The notes under the pieces were generated by a model, which ran no database searches, was not told where the DNA came from, and saw only the letters and a list, made by a program, of their open reading frames with translations. 35,762 nt of DNA from a virus. The stretch is from positions 1-35,762 of the IMG/VR virus record IMGVR_UViG_3300010396_000075. One strand, 5' to 3'. Shown in pieces: positions 4,049-35,762 of the stretch (within the stretch, counting starts at the first letter, position 1; every line of letters begins with the position of its first letter). A program made the position numbers and the translations under genes.

Positions 4049-4233
4049 ACAATTCCGAAGAATTCCGCCGCGCTTGCGAAGCCCGCGAAGTCATGAAATG
4101 GCCGCGTGAAAAACGCACAGCCCACTACGAAGCAATCAAGTTGATACGCGGGCAGGAAGCTACCACGGCCCTGATTGACGAAGTGAAGAAACAGTACCGG
4201 ATTCGTGAGAATGATATGGGAGCTACATTATGA
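4045..4233 (+). CDS. Small hypothetical early protein
   Basis: This is a 62-residue basic protein (NNSEEFRRACEAREVMKWPREKR near the N-terminus). The start chosen is GTG 4045, which overlaps the DUF1643 stop and sits 4 nt after a GGGGGGA sequence; an in-frame GTG at 4033 is possible but lacks a clear site. The RRACEAREV...RGQEATTALIDEVKKQY pattern recalls small phage proteins of the DUF7696 type, but this match is from memory and weak. It overlaps the next gene (ATGA). Confidence 0.55.
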   Translation: MNNSEEFRRACEAREVMKWPREKRTAHYEAIKLIRGQEATTALIDEVKKQYRIRENDMGATL

Positions 4234-5171
4234 AGATGTTACACGTCGTCAGCGTTTCCGGTGGAAAAGATAGTGCCGCAACGTTAGAGCTTGCAATATC
4301 GCACTGCCCACGAGAAAGCGTAATCCCTATATTTTGCGATACAGGCAATGAACATGAGGCCGTCTATGAATATCTGAATTATCTTGAAAGAATGTGTGCT
4401 ATTCGCATCATTCGATTAAAAGCAGATTTCACCGAACAAATCAGCCGTAAACGCATGTTCATAGCGCGGGATCAGCGTACTAGGCGTGATAGCTCTGGCC
4501 GGAAAGTTCGGTGGACAAACAAAGCTAAGCGCCGGGCATTGAGTGTATTGCATCCAAGTGGCAACCCCTTCCTCGATCTATGCATGTGGAAGGGCCGCTT
4601 CCCCAGCCGTAAGGCGCAATTCTGTACTGAAGAGCTCAAGCGAAACATGGCTGTGGAATTTCAGCTCGACCTTATCGACAAGGGCTTCAGCGTGTTGAGT
4701 TGGCAGGGCGTGCGTCGCGACGAATCGCATAACCGCCGTAACAGCAAGAAAATGGAACGTGTCGGGCCTGGTATGTGGATTTTTCGCCCCATCGTTGATT
4801 GGACGGCGCTCGATGTATTCGAATACTGCACGAAACGCGGACTGGATCACAACCCACTCTATAAACAAGGAATGAAGCGTGTCGGTTGCATGCCGTGTAT
4901 CAATGTCAACAAAGAAGAGCTCAAGCAGATAGCCGCCCGCTTTCCTGAGCACATCACTCGCATATCCGAGTGGGAAAAATTGGTTTCGGCGGCGAGTAAG
5001 CGCCAAGTTTCCACGTTTTTTTCAGCATACAAAGATCCCACGGTAGAAATAGGGGATGTGCACAAGCTCGTTGAATGGGCACAAACCTCAAGGGGAGGCC
5101 GTCAATATGACCTGCTCGGCGGGTTGTCTGATACCTCGGCTTGTTCCTCCGCTTATGGATTGTGTGAGTAA
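4230..5171 (+). CDS. PAPS-reductase-family (PP-loop) enzyme
   Basis: The protein has 313 residues. A PP-loop, VSGGKDS (9-15), binds the adenylate part of ATP or PAPS. Four cysteines (C118, C132, C220, C223; the last two as CMPC) are arranged as in the DndC/phage PAPS-reductase-like group, where equivalent residues can hold an iron-sulfur cluster. The C-terminus ends SSAYGLCE, a signature I recognise from phage members. The family activates sulfur or sulfate groups; in phages the substrate is not established. With no DndA/D/E genes near, phosphorothioation is not supported. It sits between coupled early genes (ATGA upstream, TAATG downstream). Confidence 0.85.
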   Translation: MKMLHVVSVSGGKDSAATLELAISHCPRESVIPIFCDTGNEHEAVYEYLNYLERMCAIRIIRLKADFTEQISRKRMFIARDQRTRRDSSGRKVRWTNKAKRRALSVLHPSGNPFLDLCMWKGRFPSRKAQFCTEELKRNMAVEFQLDLIDKGFSVLSWQGVRRDESHNRRNSKKMERVGPGMWIFRPIVDWTALDVFEYCTKRGLDHNPLYKQGMKRVGCMPCINVNKEELKQIAARFPEHITRISEWEKLVSAASKRQVSTFFSAYKDPTVEIGDVHKLVEWAQTSRGGRQYDLLGGLSDTSACSSAYGLCE

Positions 5172-8391: not shown

Positions 8392-8997
8392 CTAATCTAT
8401 GAATTCTTTGTTTGCCGTTTTATTGATGCAGTCATATTGACGCGCAAACCTGTAAATTTGTACTTGAGCATCAGCATCGCCTGGGTACCCACCTTGCACC
8501 ACCATGACGCAACGGGCGTTTCCTGATCTGTAGTCTTCAACTGTCACTTTTTCTGCAGCAGGGCTGAATTTCTTCCATACGTGATCAATTGCGATTTGCA
8601 CCAATTCCGGGGAAAAGTCACGATTTGAAAATATATATTTCGCGCTGCCGAACGCATCAACCCATGCATGATCTTGGCGATAGTTATAGCAGTCTGTCAT
8701 TCCGTCGAAGCTGCCCGCGTCGTAGCGATTTATTATTTCATCTACTTGTGCGTTGGTCGGGCCGTCTGTCCACCCCACATTGATGGAGTTGCCACCTGAA
8801 TAGCGGCTGGTCTTGACGGTAAACTTGATACCGGGGAATGCGGCTTTCAGTTCAATTCTCATATTCTTTGCTGCCGTTATTAGCGAGCTGCTGTCTTCTG
8901 AAGCGGCTACCAAGTGCGGAAATGCTTGTTTCAGTGCGTTAGCTGCAAACCTACGGGCGGCTTGTTTGGCTTCGTAGTCGGATGTATTGAAGTTCAT
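8392..8997 (-). CDS. LPD29 domain protein
   Basis: The protein has 201 residues. Residues about 40-125 (AKNMRIELKAAFPGIKFTV, SGGNSINVGWTDGPT, YNYRQDHAW, KYIFSNRDFS) match my recollection of LPD29, a large-polyvalent-protein-associated domain seen in phage and plasmid proteins. In larger proteins LPD domains accompany restriction or anti-restriction and DNA-handling modules; here the domain is nearly alone. It is the first gene after the 9046-9019 promoter, with AAGGAGAAACAAA before the ATG. A role in counter-defence is possible but is inference. Confidence 0.7.
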   Translation of the reverse strand: MNFNTSDYEAKQAARRFAANALKQAFPHLVAASEDSSSLITAAKNMRIELKAAFPGIKFTVKTSRYSGGNSINVGWTDGPTNAQVDEIINRYDAGSFDGMTDCYNYRQDHAWVDAFGSAKYIFSNRDFSPELVQIAIDHVWKKFSPAAEKVTVEDYRSGNARCVMVVQGGYPGDADAQVQIYRFARQYDCINKTANKEFID

Positions 8998-27511: not shown

Positions 27512-29098
27512 ATGACCATTGCCCTATTAACGCGGCGGGGCAAGTTCTACAAATCCCCCGGACCACAGGCAAGAATAGTTCAGGCATACCGGAACTATGC
27601 ACAGTTTTACTCCCTGATGGACGGGGAGGTATTCGCACGCGACATAGTAAACGGTAATAACTCATCCACGGCGCCGGGCGCATCTCCACCCACCACAGTA
27701 ATAACGCCGTGGGGCAAGTCACTCCATTTTGACGGATCAAGCCAGGGTCTTTATTCCGCAAATAAAATCCCTGTGCTATCTGCTGTCACGGTAATGGCAT
27801 GGGTAAGACCGGCCGCGCTCAATACTAATTACGCTCGTATAGCCGAGACTGATTACGCAACAAACTTTTATTTGGGCAGTAACACGGCATCAAAGTACGC
27901 TGTCATGTTCAACAATTCCTCGCTGGAAGGTTGTATTGGCGGGCAACAGGTAATAGGGCAGCGAGATTTTGTAGTAGGCACGTTCGACGGAACCAACCGT
28001 AATCTTTACGTAAACGGGGTTCTTGTAGCATCCGCAACGGCGACCGCACCAACCTTTCCCCAAGAAGTCTTTATAGGTAAAGGTGCGGGGGGGTCATATG
28101 GGTATTGGAATGGCGAAATTGATAACGTTTCCATATGGAGCCGGGCCTTCGCGGCTGGCGAGATATGGCAGGCATATCAAGATCGATGGCGTTTGTTCGA
28201 GCCGCCAAGACTGTACATTGGAGCGAACTTTGCGGCTGGCGGAAGTGTTACCGGCACGCTTGCCTACACCAACAAGAATGACACGGTAGCGGCAAGCGGC
28301 ACAACCACAGTCACCGGCACGATTGCCAGGACGAATGCCAATGATACCGTTGCAGCTTCGGGTACGACGACTGTAACCGGTACCCTGGCCAGAACAAATG
28401 CAAACGATACGGTTTCCGCCAGCGGCTCACCGATTGTTACAGGTTCACTCGCAAAAAAAAATGCGAATGACACGGTAAGCGCAAGTGGTTCAGTCGGATC
28501 GGCAATAACCGGATCACTGGCGTACACCAATAATAACGACACGGTTTCCGCTTCGGGGACGACGCCGGTAGTTGGCACTCTGGCAAGAACAAATGCCAAC
28601 GACACCATAGCGGCGACAGGGACAACAACAGTAACAGGTAGCCTCGCCAAGACCAACGCGAATGACACTTGCGCGGCAAGCGGAACGGTAACAAATCCGA
28701 GCGTATCCGGTTCACTGGCTTACACGAATCGCAACGATACGGTAGCGGCAAGCGGCACGACGACCATAAAAGGAAGTGCCGCTTATACCAATAATAATGA
28801 CCGATTATCCGCATTCGGCACGATAAATAACGGCATCGTATTCGAGTCGGAACTGATGACCGGGCAGCCGGTATCAACAGCCATCAAGAAACCGGGAGTG
28901 CCCACAGGTACGCCAGATTGGGAAAAAACGATATTTGAAATAATGCTGGGACGGCGGGGGAATGCAATACCTATTCCTGCCGAGCCGCCTTTGACCTTTT
29001 CCTCTACGCCAACACAGGCCGAATGCCAAGCGCTCTTTGCGTACACCAATACGGTACGAAATGCTCTGGATCAACTCATTACGAGGTTCGATAGCTGA
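27512..29098 (+). CDS. LamG-like protein with nine tandem repeats
   Basis: The protein has 528 residues. Residues about 55-235 look like a LamG/concanavalin-type jelly roll: LHFDGSSQGLYSANKIP, VTVMAWVRPAAL, FVVGTFDGTNRNLYVNGVLV, GEIDNVSIWSRAF. Residues 246-439 are nine repeats of about 21 residues on the pattern TGTLAxTNxNDTVAASGTTTV (units four and seven carry short insertions). The last 90 residues (DWEKTIFEIMLGRRGNAIPIP) look helical. It probably is a host-surface-binding virion protein, with the repeats as a spacer. It overlaps the next gene by 3 nt (TGATG). Confidence 0.7.
   Translation: MTIALLTRRGKFYKSPGPQARIVQAYRNYAQFYSLMDGEVFARDIVNGNNSSTAPGASPPTTVITPWGKSLHFDGSSQGLYSANKIPVLSAVTVMAWVRPAALNTNYARIAETDYATNFYLGSNTASKYAVMFNNSSLEGCIGGQQVIGQRDFVVGTFDGTNRNLYVNGVLVASATATAPTFPQEVFIGKGAGGSYGYWNGEIDNVSIWSRAFAAGEIWQAYQDRWRLFEPPRLYIGANFAAGGSVTGTLAYTNKNDTVAASGTTTVTGTIARTNANDTVAASGTTTVTGTLARTNANDTVSASGSPIVTGSLAKKNANDTVSASGSVGSAITGSLAYTNNNDTVSASGTTPVVGTLARTNANDTIAATGTTTVTGSLAKTNANDTCAASGTVTNPSVSGSLAYTNRNDTVAASGTTTIKGSAAYTNNNDRLSAFGTINNGIVFESELMTGQPVSTAIKKPGVPTGTPDWEKTIFEIMLGRRGNAIPIPAEPPLTFSSTPTQAECQALFAYTNTVRNALDQLITRFDS
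28247..28828 (+). repeat. Tandem in-frame coding repeats (63-bp unit)
   Basis: Nine near-identical in-frame units encode the TGxLAxTNxNDTVxASGT pattern; seven are about 63 bp and two are longer (69 and 72 bp). DNA identity between units is lower than amino-acid similarity, so the array has diverged. Copy number may vary between isolates by recombination, which would change shaft length. Confidence 0.9.
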
Positions 29099-29712
29099 TG
29101 CAAAACGAACAACTTTTGAAGCTGCTGAAGGCCAACATCGGCGCGCAATTAACTGCGGATCTTGCGGCTGATATTTACATCATGGCCGGGTATCTGTCCA
29201 CGCTCATTCAGCCCAGCGTTATCAAGCGCATACCGCCAACGGAATGGCAAGATTACACGTTCCACGTGGAGCTCATGGAAAAAATAGTTGATGAAATGCG
29301 GCCCTTGCACCTGGAGCATTGGAAAGAAACCGAGGCGCATCGGCACGGCCTGAACTTCAATCCTGACTACGCTACTTTCATCCGATACGAACGGGCGGGG
29401 CGATACGTTCTTTTCACGCTGCGCAAGGAAGGTAAGCTACTCGGCAACTGTGCAATGTACCTGTCCGAAAGTGCCCACACGAAATCTATCCTGGCAACGG
29501 AAGACACGCTATTTATCCTAGCGGAAGCAAGGCGAGGCCGTCTGGCCGGGAGATTCATCGAATACTGCGAAGATGCGCTTAAATCGCTGGGAGTCAGGGA
29601 AATAAACGTAAGTGTCAAAACCGTGAACAAGGCAGGGCGGTTCTTCCGGATGCTTGGATACAAACATGTTGAAGATGGACTGAATAAAATATTGGAGGTT
29701 GAACATGCGTAA
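29098..29712 (+). CDS. GNAT family N-acetyltransferase
   Basis: The protein has 204 residues. The C-terminal part has the GNAT order: strands around RYVLFTLRKEGKLLGNCAMYLS, a motif A-like ILAEARRGRLAGRFIEYCEDAL with the R-x-x-x-G-x-A acetyl-CoA pyrophosphate loop, and NVSVKTVNKAGRFFRMLGYKH (motif B). The first 90 residues are a helical extension (LKLLKANIGAQLTADLAADIY). The target is unknown: it may modify a virion protein, peptide or host factor. Placed between virion genes with a TGATG overlap upstream, it is expressed late. Confidence 0.85.
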   Translation: MQNEQLLKLLKANIGAQLTADLAADIYIMAGYLSTLIQPSVIKRIPPTEWQDYTFHVELMEKIVDEMRPLHLEHWKETEAHRHGLNFNPDYATFIRYERAGRYVLFTLRKEGKLLGNCAMYLSESAHTKSILATEDTLFILAEARRGRLAGRFIEYCEDALKSLGVREINVSVKTVNKAGRFFRMLGYKHVEDGLNKILEVEHA

Positions 29713-32243: not shown

Positions 32244-32612
32244 ATGAAACGGCTACTGATCTGTGTAATGGCGGTTTTCCTGTTTTCAGGGTGCGCGACA
32301 ACCAGCGTAAACAAGGAAGCCAAAACCCGCTATAAAGAAAAAATGGACTTGTTTCTAGGTGAAGACGAGTCCTTTTTGGTGCGGTGGTGGGGGGCGCCTG
32401 ATAGGGAATATGAACTTGATGGAGTAAAATACTTAAGATACTCATCTTCCAGGACTGTTCCATATCCAATGCCATTACAGATAAGCGTTCCCTCCTATAA
32501 TCGCTTCGTCATGTACGGCGGAGGGGCAGCAAGCATGAATTGCGATAATACTTTTGAAATCCAGCGCGGAATAGTTGTCGCGTGGCGATTCAAAGGTAAC
32601 GGCTGTAGATAA
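32244..32612 (+). CDS. Lipoprotein moron (lysogenic conversion candidate)
   Basis: The protein has 122 residues. A signal (RLLICVMAVFLFSGC) ends in lipobox FSGC, so the Cys is probably lipid-anchored. The mature part has FLVRWWGAPDREYELDGVKYLRYSS and FEIQRGIVVAWRFKGNGC, similar in style to small outer-membrane lipoproteins with the G-x-P then G-x-x-x-L-x-Y pattern (SmpA/BamE-like in shape only). It has its own promoter and is closed by a terminator (32633-32660): a typical moron. Expression in the lysogen could alter the host surface or exclude other phages. Base use is more AT-rich than neighbouring late genes. Confidence 0.75.
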   Translation: MKRLLICVMAVFLFSGCATTSVNKEAKTRYKEKMDLFLGEDESFLVRWWGAPDREYELDGVKYLRYSSSRTVPYPMPLQISVPSYNRFVMYGGGAASMNCDNTFEIQRGIVVAWRFKGNGCR

Positions 32613-32632
32613 ACGCAGCATCATGAACATTC

Positions 32633-32660
32633 AAGCCGCCTTCGAGCGGCTTTTTCTTTT
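32633..32660 (+). terminator. Intrinsic terminator after moron
   Basis: The stem AAGCCGC / GCGGCTT (32633-32639, 32646-32652) with a six-base loop is followed by T-rich TTTTCTTTTT. It is a close variant of the terminators at 15841 and 26045. GAGG for the next gene begins right after it. Confidence 0.85.
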
Positions 32661-32669
32661 TGAGGCCAC

Positions 32670-35600
32670 ATGGCATATACCGAATTCAATGGCGAACTGG
32701 ACGGCGAAGAACCCGGCTATGTCGAGTTCAATGGCGAACTGGATAAACCAGAGTCAAAACTGGATAAGGTTAAATCCGTTGTGTCAAAGGGTGTGGACGC
32801 TGGGCTGTCCATGCTCACGCCCAAGAAAAGTATTGCGGATCAGGCACAGACTCAACCTACACAACCTGCAAACGCAGCCAGGATACAGCGCAACAATGCG
32901 ATTGGATTAAGAGCATTTACCTCCGCCGAACCGGTCCCCCAAGAAGGCGGATTCGTTAACTCTGCTGCCCGCACAGTCGGGCAGGGCATCAAGGGTGCCG
33001 GACAGGTTGCCGCTGATTATCTCGGTGCAGACCGCAACAATGCCGCGAAACGATACGGACAAGCGGTTATCGATGCAAATCCCACGGCGGTCAATTCCCT
33101 CGAAGACATAGCCGCCAAACCGGGTACCGCCATTGCTGAAGGCACAGGCAATGCAGCGCCATCCATGGCCGGAATGATCGGTGCGCGAGCTGTAGGCCAA
33201 GGCATTACCGCACTCTCCCCGCTGGCTGGTCCCGCTGCCCCTCTGGTAGCTGCTGCCGGTCAAGTCGTGTCATGGCTCGGACCTGCTGCAATCGCTGCGC
33301 TACCTTCCTACGGCGGTATTCGCGACAAGCAAATACTCAATGATCCGGCGGCTGAACAATCAGCCAAATCCAAAGCTATTGCAGCAATGGGAGCGGCGGC
33401 TGTTGCTGGGATAGAAACCGCATTCGGCCCACAGAATTGGGCACTTGCTGCGATGACCAAGCAGGGCCGGGCAAAAATGGCAGAGAAGTTTGCCGCGACA
33501 ACGCTAGCCGGATCGATTGGGAAAGGTGCCGTCAAAGGCGCTGCTATCGAAGGCTCAGAAGAACTCGCCCAGAATCCCATTGAACAACTCGCGGCTGGTG
33601 ACAATCCGACGACCAAAGAGAATATAAAAGATACCTTGTTCGGTGGCGCAATGGGCGCACTCAGCGGCGGGGTATTGGGCGGCGGGTCTGGAATGCTGCT
33701 CGGTAAACCCATCACACAGACACCAGACAACGTTCTCAAATACACTGCTGAACGGGGCGGCAAGAAGGCCAAAGAAACCGCACAAGCAGAATTAGACCGC
33801 AGGGCGCAAGATGGGATCGTTAATAATACCCCTGAATCAACACCTGAAGCCGTACAGCGCATCATAGCCACAGGCAAGGATAAGGCAAAGGATATTAATC
33901 CCGATGCAGCCACGGGCTCAGATTCTATTCAAAGCAGCATATTTGAGGAACCAGACCATGTTGTTGACGCCAACAAAATGGATAACGCACCGGATCAGCC
34001 GACTCCCGAACCCGTAGAAACGCTCAACGCACAACTCAATGCGCTGGCCGATGGCAGAAAACCAGGTGTTCTCATCACTCCGGGCGAACCCATGCCGGAT
34101 TCTCTACCGCAAGGCATTAAATCTGCCGATGTGCCGGGACACGGTACGCTCCTATATCGGGATGAGGCCACCCTGCAAGCTGCAAGAAATGGACAGATGG
34201 GAGCCGCACTCGGCTATGGTATTGATGAGAAGCCAGCGGGCGCTACCCATACTGTGACCGCACGCGACGAGAAAGGAAATGTCATTCAGGACGTGGCGAC
34301 CGATGGCAGTCATTCTGTCATTCAGGCGGCCAAAAATGTGGCGGGGCCTGCCGGCACGGTCGAAATTCGGCCTGTCGCTGATGCGATGGTGGAGCGTGAT
34401 GCCAACGTACATCAACCCACTCAAGAACAAGTGGAAAAGGCCGGCGCACAAGCAGCAGAGAAAGTGGGGCTCCCTAAAGTTGGGTCACGTATAGAATACA
34501 AGGGTCCTTCAGGGGAAACTCGATCTGGCACCGTACTTGCGTACGGAGTTTTGCAAGGGAACGGGAATGTTGAACATCGAGTGCGTATCAAAGATGATGA
34601 GGGTTATGAAACAGCACCAATGGTGGACGCAGCCAATCCACGGTTACCAAAAAAACAGGCAACTTTACCCAATAAACCACTGGACGAAACACAAGATACC
34701 AAAACAACATTAGTCCAATCCGGGGGAGGAACTAAGCCTGTAGCCGCTCCCAAACAGGAGAAAACGGAAGACACACCGAGGGCTCACCCTATCCGACCCC
34801 TCCTGGAATCCCTCATCAAGCGCCGGGCGGCAGCCAAACAGGTAGGCAAGGAACGCAGCATCAACAACGCCATTGCTCGCGCCAAAGAAGTAATGAGTGG
34901 CAAACGCGCAGATACTGACCTTGAATCAAAATGGTTCCGCTTGCAAGCTGGCGCAATACGAAAATCAGATCCTGCGACTGCTGATTTATTGCACCAGATC
35001 AGTGAGACCATTAAACCGCTTGCAAAACAGAAATCAAGCGGATATGATAAATCACATGAAATATCCAGCCAAAAGAAGCCCGAAACCAAGCAAACTATCC
35101 CTGTGCGGGGGAGTGAGAGCGCCGTTCTACGTGAACGGGGTGGACGTATCCTCGCCAACGGGATCGTTCAAAGCATACAAACACACGGTATTTCTGCCCT
35201 CATCGGAAAAACCATCAACTCCCCCGAGCAGCTTGCCGAAATAGCCCAGGTTTACCGCAATCCTCGTTACGAAACCTTCCGTATTTTCTTCACCAAGGGC
35301 ATCGAAATTGTTCACGCTTCCGGCGTGACGGCTCGCCTTCCCGGCACTACCCCTATATTCCCTAAGGACATGTCCACCGAACAAGGTGCGACCTGGATCA
35401 AGGATATGATGCAATCCTCCGGGGCAGACGGTTACTGGATGCTACACAACCATCCGTCTGGCAACCCTACCCCAAGCGATACCGATATCACAGCGACAAG
35501 AAACATGGCAAAGCTGATACCCGGATTTAAGGGGCACGTAATCATTAACTCAAACAAGTACGCGCAGATAATGATCCCTAATAGCCGAATATCTGCAAAA

Positions 35601-35762
35601 GTAATCAGCAAACATTTTTCCGAAGATAACCTCCTGAAAGCCTCAAAACCAAGCGTCTATATTGGTAAGCCCGTTCCCAATCCGAGCGTTGTAGCAACTA
35701 TCGGGAAGTCCTTCCAAAAAGATGGATGGGTAACTCTTATCGGTGTTTCCGGACTCTCAGGA
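32670..35762 (+). CDS. Large polyvalent virion protein with RadC/JAMM-type motif (partial)
   Basis: The frame opens at ATG 32670 (GAGG upstream) and stays open through the right edge: 1031 codons seen, no stop. The N-terminus carries a duplicated EFNGELD motif (residues 5-11 and 19-25); residues about 85-375 are Ala/Gly-rich and hydrophobic, as in proteins that cross membranes during DNA entry. Near the end, H926-N-H928-PSG...PS936-x-x-D939 matches the RadC/MPN+ (JAMM) metal-binding motif, with a preceding IEIVHASGV and following GHVIINSNKYAQI strand. Large phage ejection proteins with enzyme domains (gp16-like) are the best comparison. Protein continues outside the window. Confidence 0.75.
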   Translation, partial: MAYTEFNGELDGEEPGYVEFNGELDKPESKLDKVKSVVSKGVDAGLSMLTPKKSIADQAQTQPTQPANAARIQRNNAIGLRAFTSAEPVPQEGGFVNSAARTVGQGIKGAGQVAADYLGADRNNAAKRYGQAVIDANPTAVNSLEDIAAKPGTAIAEGTGNAAPSMAGMIGARAVGQGITALSPLAGPAAPLVAAAGQVVSWLGPAAIAALPSYGGIRDKQILNDPAAEQSAKSKAIAAMGAAAVAGIETAFGPQNWALAAMTKQGRAKMAEKFAATTLAGSIGKGAVKGAAIEGSEELAQNPIEQLAAGDNPTTKENIKDTLFGGAMGALSGGVLGGGSGMLLGKPITQTPDNVLKYTAERGGKKAKETAQAELDRRAQDGIVNNTPESTPEAVQRIIATGKDKAKDINPDAATGSDSIQSSIFEEPDHVVDANKMDNAPDQPTPEPVETLNAQLNALADGRKPGVLITPGEPMPDSLPQGIKSADVPGHGTLLYRDEATLQAARNGQMGAALGYGIDEKPAGATHTVTARDEKGNVIQDVATDGSHSVIQAAKNVAGPAGTVEIRPVADAMVERDANVHQPTQEQVEKAGAQAAEKVGLPKVGSRIEYKGPSGETRSGTVLAYGVLQGNGNVEHRVRIKDDEGYETAPMVDAANPRLPKKQATLPNKPLDETQDTKTTLVQSGGGTKPVAAPKQEKTEDTPRAHPIRPLLESLIKRRAAAKQVGKERSINNAIARAKEVMSGKRADTDLESKWFRLQAGAIRKSDPATADLLHQISETIKPLAKQKSSGYDKSHEISSQKKPETKQTIPVRGSESAVLRERGGRILANGIVQSIQTHGISALIGKTINSPEQLAEIAQVYRNPRYETFRIFFTKGIEIVHASGVTARLPGTTPIFPKDMSTEQGATWIKDMMQSSGADGYWMLHNHPSGNPTPSDTDITATRNMAKLIPGFKGHVIINSNKYAQIMIPNSRISAKVISKHFSEDNLLKASKPSVYIGKPVPNPSVVATIGKSFQKDGWVTLIGVSGLSG

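Follow-up and report, generated by a model that had tools for sequence, protein, structure and literature searches.

A RadC-type JAB domain in a giant polyvalent protein of a tailed phage, with an apparently degenerate JAB-like domain beside it

The polyvalent-protein gene and its genomic setting

The window analysed here is an entire IMG/VR record, a contig of 35762 bp from a tailed phage. It carries the 5' part of a gene for a giant polyvalent protein (Table 1), which is incomplete in the window because the contig, and with it the whole record, stops inside the open reading frame. Upstream are found genes for a D12 adenine methylase (1272-2117), an O-like replication protein, a phosphoadenosine phosphosulfate reductase (4230-5171), terminase, portal, major head protein, tail fibre, endolysin and an internal virion protein, the methylase and the reductase being part of the early region. 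The terminase, portal, head and internal virion protein genes are on the same strand as the polyvalent-protein gene. Among 45 records the portal family phrog_156 was matched in 24 and the head protein family phrog_334 in 14. A match named E1_FCCH in the internal virion protein was weak, below the cut-off, and was taken as chance.

Table 1. Features of the polyvalent-protein locus in the window.
Feature	Position	Strand	Basis
Intrinsic-terminator-like hairpin just upstream of the polyvalent-protein gene	32633..32652	+	Conserved in L010, the sister phage
Polyvalent-protein gene, 5' part only	32670..35762	+	ATG start, 1031 codons, still open at contig end
Two near-identical N-terminal nonapeptides, YTEFNGELD and YVEFNGELD (residues 3-11 and 17-25)	32676..32744	+	Read in translation
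Ala/Gly-rich region (residues 95-350)	32952..33719	+	Composition
RadC-type JAB/MPN+ domain (residues 846-976)	35205..35597	+	AF2 model, RadC structural match, PF04002
Catalytic-type Glu E868 (YETFR)	35271..35273	+	Invariant in 62/62 homologues
JAMM metal motif HNHPSGNPTPSDTD (residues 926-939; H926, H928, S936, D939)	35445..35486	+	H, H, S, D invariant in 62/62
Start of second, apparently degenerate JAB-like domain (residues 995-1031); contig ends inside it	35652..35762	+	Alignment with L010 and others

A complete counterpart of the protein is present in a sister phage (L010; L002 is the same contig). It has 2065 amino acids and shares 70% identity with the window protein along all the length available. 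By comparison with it we infer the window protein's own LPD38 domain and most of its second domain, described below.

Three other features of the window were recorded. Between the structural gene and the polyvalent-protein gene there is a variable slot, which holds different short lipoprotein-like genes, with a signal peptide ending in SGCA, in the window (32244-32652) and in L010 (7094-7364), and no gene in the related L012; the same conserved terminator hairpin lies 3' of both versions. The slot looks like a moron cassette and perhaps serves superinfection exclusion. A GNAT acetyltransferase gene (29098-29712) is located among the virion structural genes, and L010, L011 and L012 carry it in the same place with 60-68% identity. 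On the minus strand, a small open reading frame (8392-8997) encodes LPD29 (E 3.6e-23), a domain of polyvalent proteins that is here a gene of its own.

The Ala/Gly-rich region of the polyvalent protein had been called membrane-active-looking in the preliminary description. Its composition is as reported, alanine and glycine making up 39% of residues 95-260 and 34% of residues 261-350, but no clear transmembrane helix is found there, the top Kyte-Doolittle 19-mer reaching only 1.56, and a membrane-active region was rejected as unsupported. Searches with the whole 1031 amino acid protein against annotated phages, and with whole-protein patterns against IMG/VR, gave no match, probably owing to the fast-evolving N-terminal part. 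The last 201 amino acids as query recovered the relatives which the whole-protein search had missed.

The RadC-type domain and its metal site

The only domain matched in the window protein, the gene being cut, is a RadC-type JAB/MPN+ domain. The preliminary description had reported a protein of more than 1031 residues with a C-terminal RadC/JAMM motif. The open frame and the complete site bear out its size and its motif, but not the terminal position: the domain appears C-terminal because the contig stops there, while in L010 it is found mid-way, with the RadC histidines near residue 970 of 2065 and LPD38 at 1760-1952, the protein's end. The residues H926, H928 and D939 are located as first described and, with S936 and the upstream E868, give the full EXnHxHX7SXXD spacing, so that the JAMM site is complete.

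The match to the RadC family PF04002 has an E value of 1.1e-6 and 29 bits (curated cut-off 22.1), and PHROG 10276, annotated as a DNA repair protein, also covers the motif region. The domain stays under the cut-off of the Prok-JAB model (15.1 versus 25 bits) and of the canonical RadC models TIGR00608 (24.6 versus 133.85 bits) and NF000642 (25.2 versus 180 bits). Residues E, H, N, H, P, S and D of the site are kept in all 62 non-redundant homologues, and this conservation together with the PF04002 match places the motif beyond chance. In L033, L049 and L052, which were excluded from the 62-member count, the residues following HNHP differ from the usual [ST]G (HNHPGK, HNHPSS), both histidines, the serine and the aspartate being apparently retained.

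Predicted fold

An AF2 model of the window's sequence (model ma8085858152b) was computed from an alignment with 30 homologues in which the window sequence stood first. Its mean pLDDT is 80.8, and the domain reaches 85-98 in most of its blocks. Compared by VIA-align, the first structure is RadC 2qlc (Z 14.3, 2.2 A over 116 residues), followed by PfJAMM1 (Z 9.8) and AMSH (Z 8.8). The model of L010 agrees, with Z 13.3 to RadC versus 9.2 to deubiquitinases. Structure prediction had been proposed at the outset as a check for an MPN fold, and that fold was found: in the model the domain has an MPN/JAB fold nearest to RadC, ahead of deubiquitinases. It was the fold search which decided the likeness to RadC, since the PDB sequence search with the last 201 amino acids was weak, listing 2qlc only at E 0.25 behind a spurious amidohydrolase at 0.04.

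The same search bears on a different enzyme activity. The fold also matches, besides PfJAMM1 and AMSH, Rpn11, Cap3 (9ild) and bacterial Ubl-deubiquitinases (8tyx, 9ea4), all at Z 6.8-9.8, and the exact JAMM motif in 62/62 homologues would suit an isopeptidase which strips bacterial ubiquitin-like proteins from the conjugates of host defences such as type II CBASS, Bil or Bub. Both sequence and structure are nevertheless nearest to RadC and not to the deubiquitinase branch, and RadC has been argued to have no groove for a ubiquitin tail (Iyer et al., PMC5512222). The genomic evidence on this point is given with the relatives.

A second, apparently degenerate JAB-like domain

Downstream of the RadC-type domain begins a second domain, of which only the first 37 or so residues are inside the window. 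In L010 it is modelled by AF2 at a pLDDT of about 90 as helix-strand-strand-helix-strand-helix-strand-strand, which is the order of secondary structure of the RadC domain. Alignment of the RadC domain to the second domain by hhalign gave a probability of 94.7 and a score of 46.5; the maxima of the controls were 23.2 for 200 column shuffles, 37.7 for 200 ten-column block shuffles and 15.1 for 15 other slices of the same proteins. The HxH motif is absent from the second domain in 60/60 members. The fold search with the L010 model listed no clear independent match to this segment, which was barely probed there, so that the absence carries no weight. On alignment and models, the second domain is apparently a degenerate copy of the JAB domain without metal ligands, and the module, whose second half is known from the relatives, resembles an MPN+/MPN- pair in a single chain. 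No description of this probable pseudo-JAB partner was found in the literature examined.

The contrast between the two domains speaks to whether the first one is an enzyme. No activity has been demonstrated for RadC domains, and E. coli radC mutants have normal sensitivity to DNA damage (PMC11981726), which would fit a structural or DNA-binding domain that can do without catalysis and is retained for its fold. We consider this improbable, as the members diverge to about 30% identity and yet all residues of the metal site, with the catalytic-type Glu, stay unchanged in 62/62, whereas the adjacent second domain has none of them.

The family and its relatives

Domain scans identified about 90 loci in phage contigs and bacterial genomes, of which 62 non-redundant ones could be aligned across the metal site. 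The tree sets these on a long branch of their own (SH-aLRT 100), apart from the canonical RadC proteins encoded in the same bacterial genomes. L010 groups with the window sequence (96), and next come L011 and L012 (97); the tree was built on few columns and many of its inner forks are unresolved. By sequence, the domain belongs to a distinct RadC-related clade found mostly within giant phage polyvalent proteins. Nearly all columns invariant over the whole set are within the RadC module.

All 18 full-length relatives scanned have the RadC Pfam match, and Prok-JAB is matched in one. Other domains include LPD38 in six, ddrB-ParB and ART-PolyVal in four each and LPD3 in three, with LPD1, LPD5, InPase, MuF_C and RelA_SpoT each present in subsets; L010 combines RadC with LPD38. 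One Acidovorax locus (L061, 7730-11425) has a single open reading frame of 1232 amino acids with two in-frame RadC matches separated by 1440 bases, apparently a duplicated module. As a mere occurrence, a RadC-like domain in phage proteins is already in the databases: BFVD holds phage proteins automatically named "RadC-like JAB domain containing protein", with alignments long enough for both domains. None of the annotated GenBank phage records matched the two-domain module.

The context of the relatives does not point to ubiquitin-like proteins. Ubiquitin-like, E1 and E2 Pfam domains were found in 0/18 full-length relatives, and Prok-E2_B was found in only 3 of 26 host genomes, a count that has no base rate for comparison; the Prok-E2_A search matched nowhere, controls included, and is uninformative. 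The gene paired with the solo form, described in the next section, is moreover one of antirestriction. An isopeptidase acting on ubiquitin-like conjugates is thus very unlikely. The deubiquitinase or Ubl-defence role put forward in the preliminary description is not favoured, the only model over threshold and the nearest structure both being RadC; the predicted fold would permit such a role and the context lends it nothing.

The solo form beside ArdC

The domain also occurs as a solo form of about 375 amino acids. In at least 29 of the 31 Nitrosomonas-type solo loci it is encoded directly downstream of a gene combining ArdcN, MPTase-PolyVal and DUF5710. In the two others (L102 and L103) the sequence begins too near the match to show the upstream gene, and the 708 amino acid L079 was omitted from the count. 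One solo locus is on a MOBP/MPF_T conjugative plasmid. As the relatives show, the two-part module is recurrent in phages and in conjugative elements.

For the MPTase domains Iyer et al. (PMC5512222) propose trigger or maturation cutting. A parallel role for our module would be that of a peptidase which, after injection, cuts the polyvalent protein or a partner and frees the other domains; the fusion of the module to giant multi-domain phage proteins and the frequency of peptidase domains in polyvalent proteins (PMC5512222) are in line with it. Yet the solo form adjoins a protein which already bears its own MPTase-PolyVal domain, and no shared cleavage site is evident, because the sequences flanking the module are not conserved. 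JAMM enzymes are not known to act as general endopeptidases. We regard such a peptidase as unlikely.

Proposed function

We give about an even chance to the reading in which the module would be an injected, metal-dependent hydrolase of RadC type, acting early on a nucleic acid or nucleotide-type substrate, such as the incoming DNA or a nucleotide signal, in DNA processing or counter-defence. The polyvalent protein would be made late, packaged, and then injected together with the DNA. Once inside a new host, the module would hydrolyse its substrate in a metal-dependent manner, and may thereby process the DNA that enters or disarm a defence, in the manner of the ArdC-type partner of the solo form. 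What the analysis shows is the predicted fold, the metal site, the clade, the likeness of the second domain to the first and the gene neighbourhoods. That the protein is packaged and injected, that the module is catalytic and on which substrate, and what the second domain does are what we infer; delivery with the DNA is plausible judging from the position of the gene.

The choice of substrate is based on the ArdC neighbour and on the literature, Iyer et al. having argued that RadC processes nucleic acid or nucleotides (PMC5512222). This evidence is contextual, since a published study that compared the RadC-like domain of DinG proteins by DALI obtained metalloproteases and not nucleases (PMC11981726). 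The activity of RadC itself is unsettled (PMC5512222, PMC11981726). No paper on RadC together with anti-defense and phage came up in a literature search. It is unlikely that the module is, more specifically, a phage-injected single-chain MPN+/pseudo-MPN enzyme which disarms a ubiquitin-like or nucleotide-signalling defence of the host at DNA entry.

RadC is very widespread in bacteria. A compact version of about 370 amino acids beside ArdC and its counterpart in phages, which is probably injected, make up a defined module with a clear setting, DNA entry, in which the function of RadC-type JAB domains can be studied. The repertoire of phage-type polyvalent proteins would, if this reading is true, be widened.

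Comparison with known systems

The JAMM deubiquitinases and JAMM proteins of Ubl defence (AMSH, Rpn11, PfJAMM1, Cap3) share the MPN fold and the JAMM motif, but their structural similarity to the window domain is lower, no ubiquitin-like partner was found and Prok-JAB stays below its cut-off. The probable MPN+/MPN- pairing is reminiscent of Rpn11/Rpn8 and BRCC36/Abraxas, but in the window type it is within one chain. As to the ArdC antirestriction polyvalent proteins of conjugative elements, the ArdC gene adjoins the solo form, and ArdcN was matched neither in the window protein nor in the 18 scanned relatives.

RadC (UPF0758; PF04002; 2qlc) provides the closest fold and the closest sequence model, with the HNHPSGxxxPSxxD site and the upstream Glu; the window clade differs from it by extra invariant Arg residues, the tandem second domain and the context of a giant phage protein. 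The phage-type polyvalent proteins (PMC5512222) are alike in being giant open reading frames in the late region of portal-terminase phages, and the relatives are likewise multi-domain (LPD38, ddrB-ParB, ART-PolyVal, InPase, MuF_C). The survey of Iyer et al. of 2017 (PMC5512222) lists RadC only in polyvalent proteins of conjugative elements, whereas here it is widespread in those of phage type, and the conjugative version is a solo protein.
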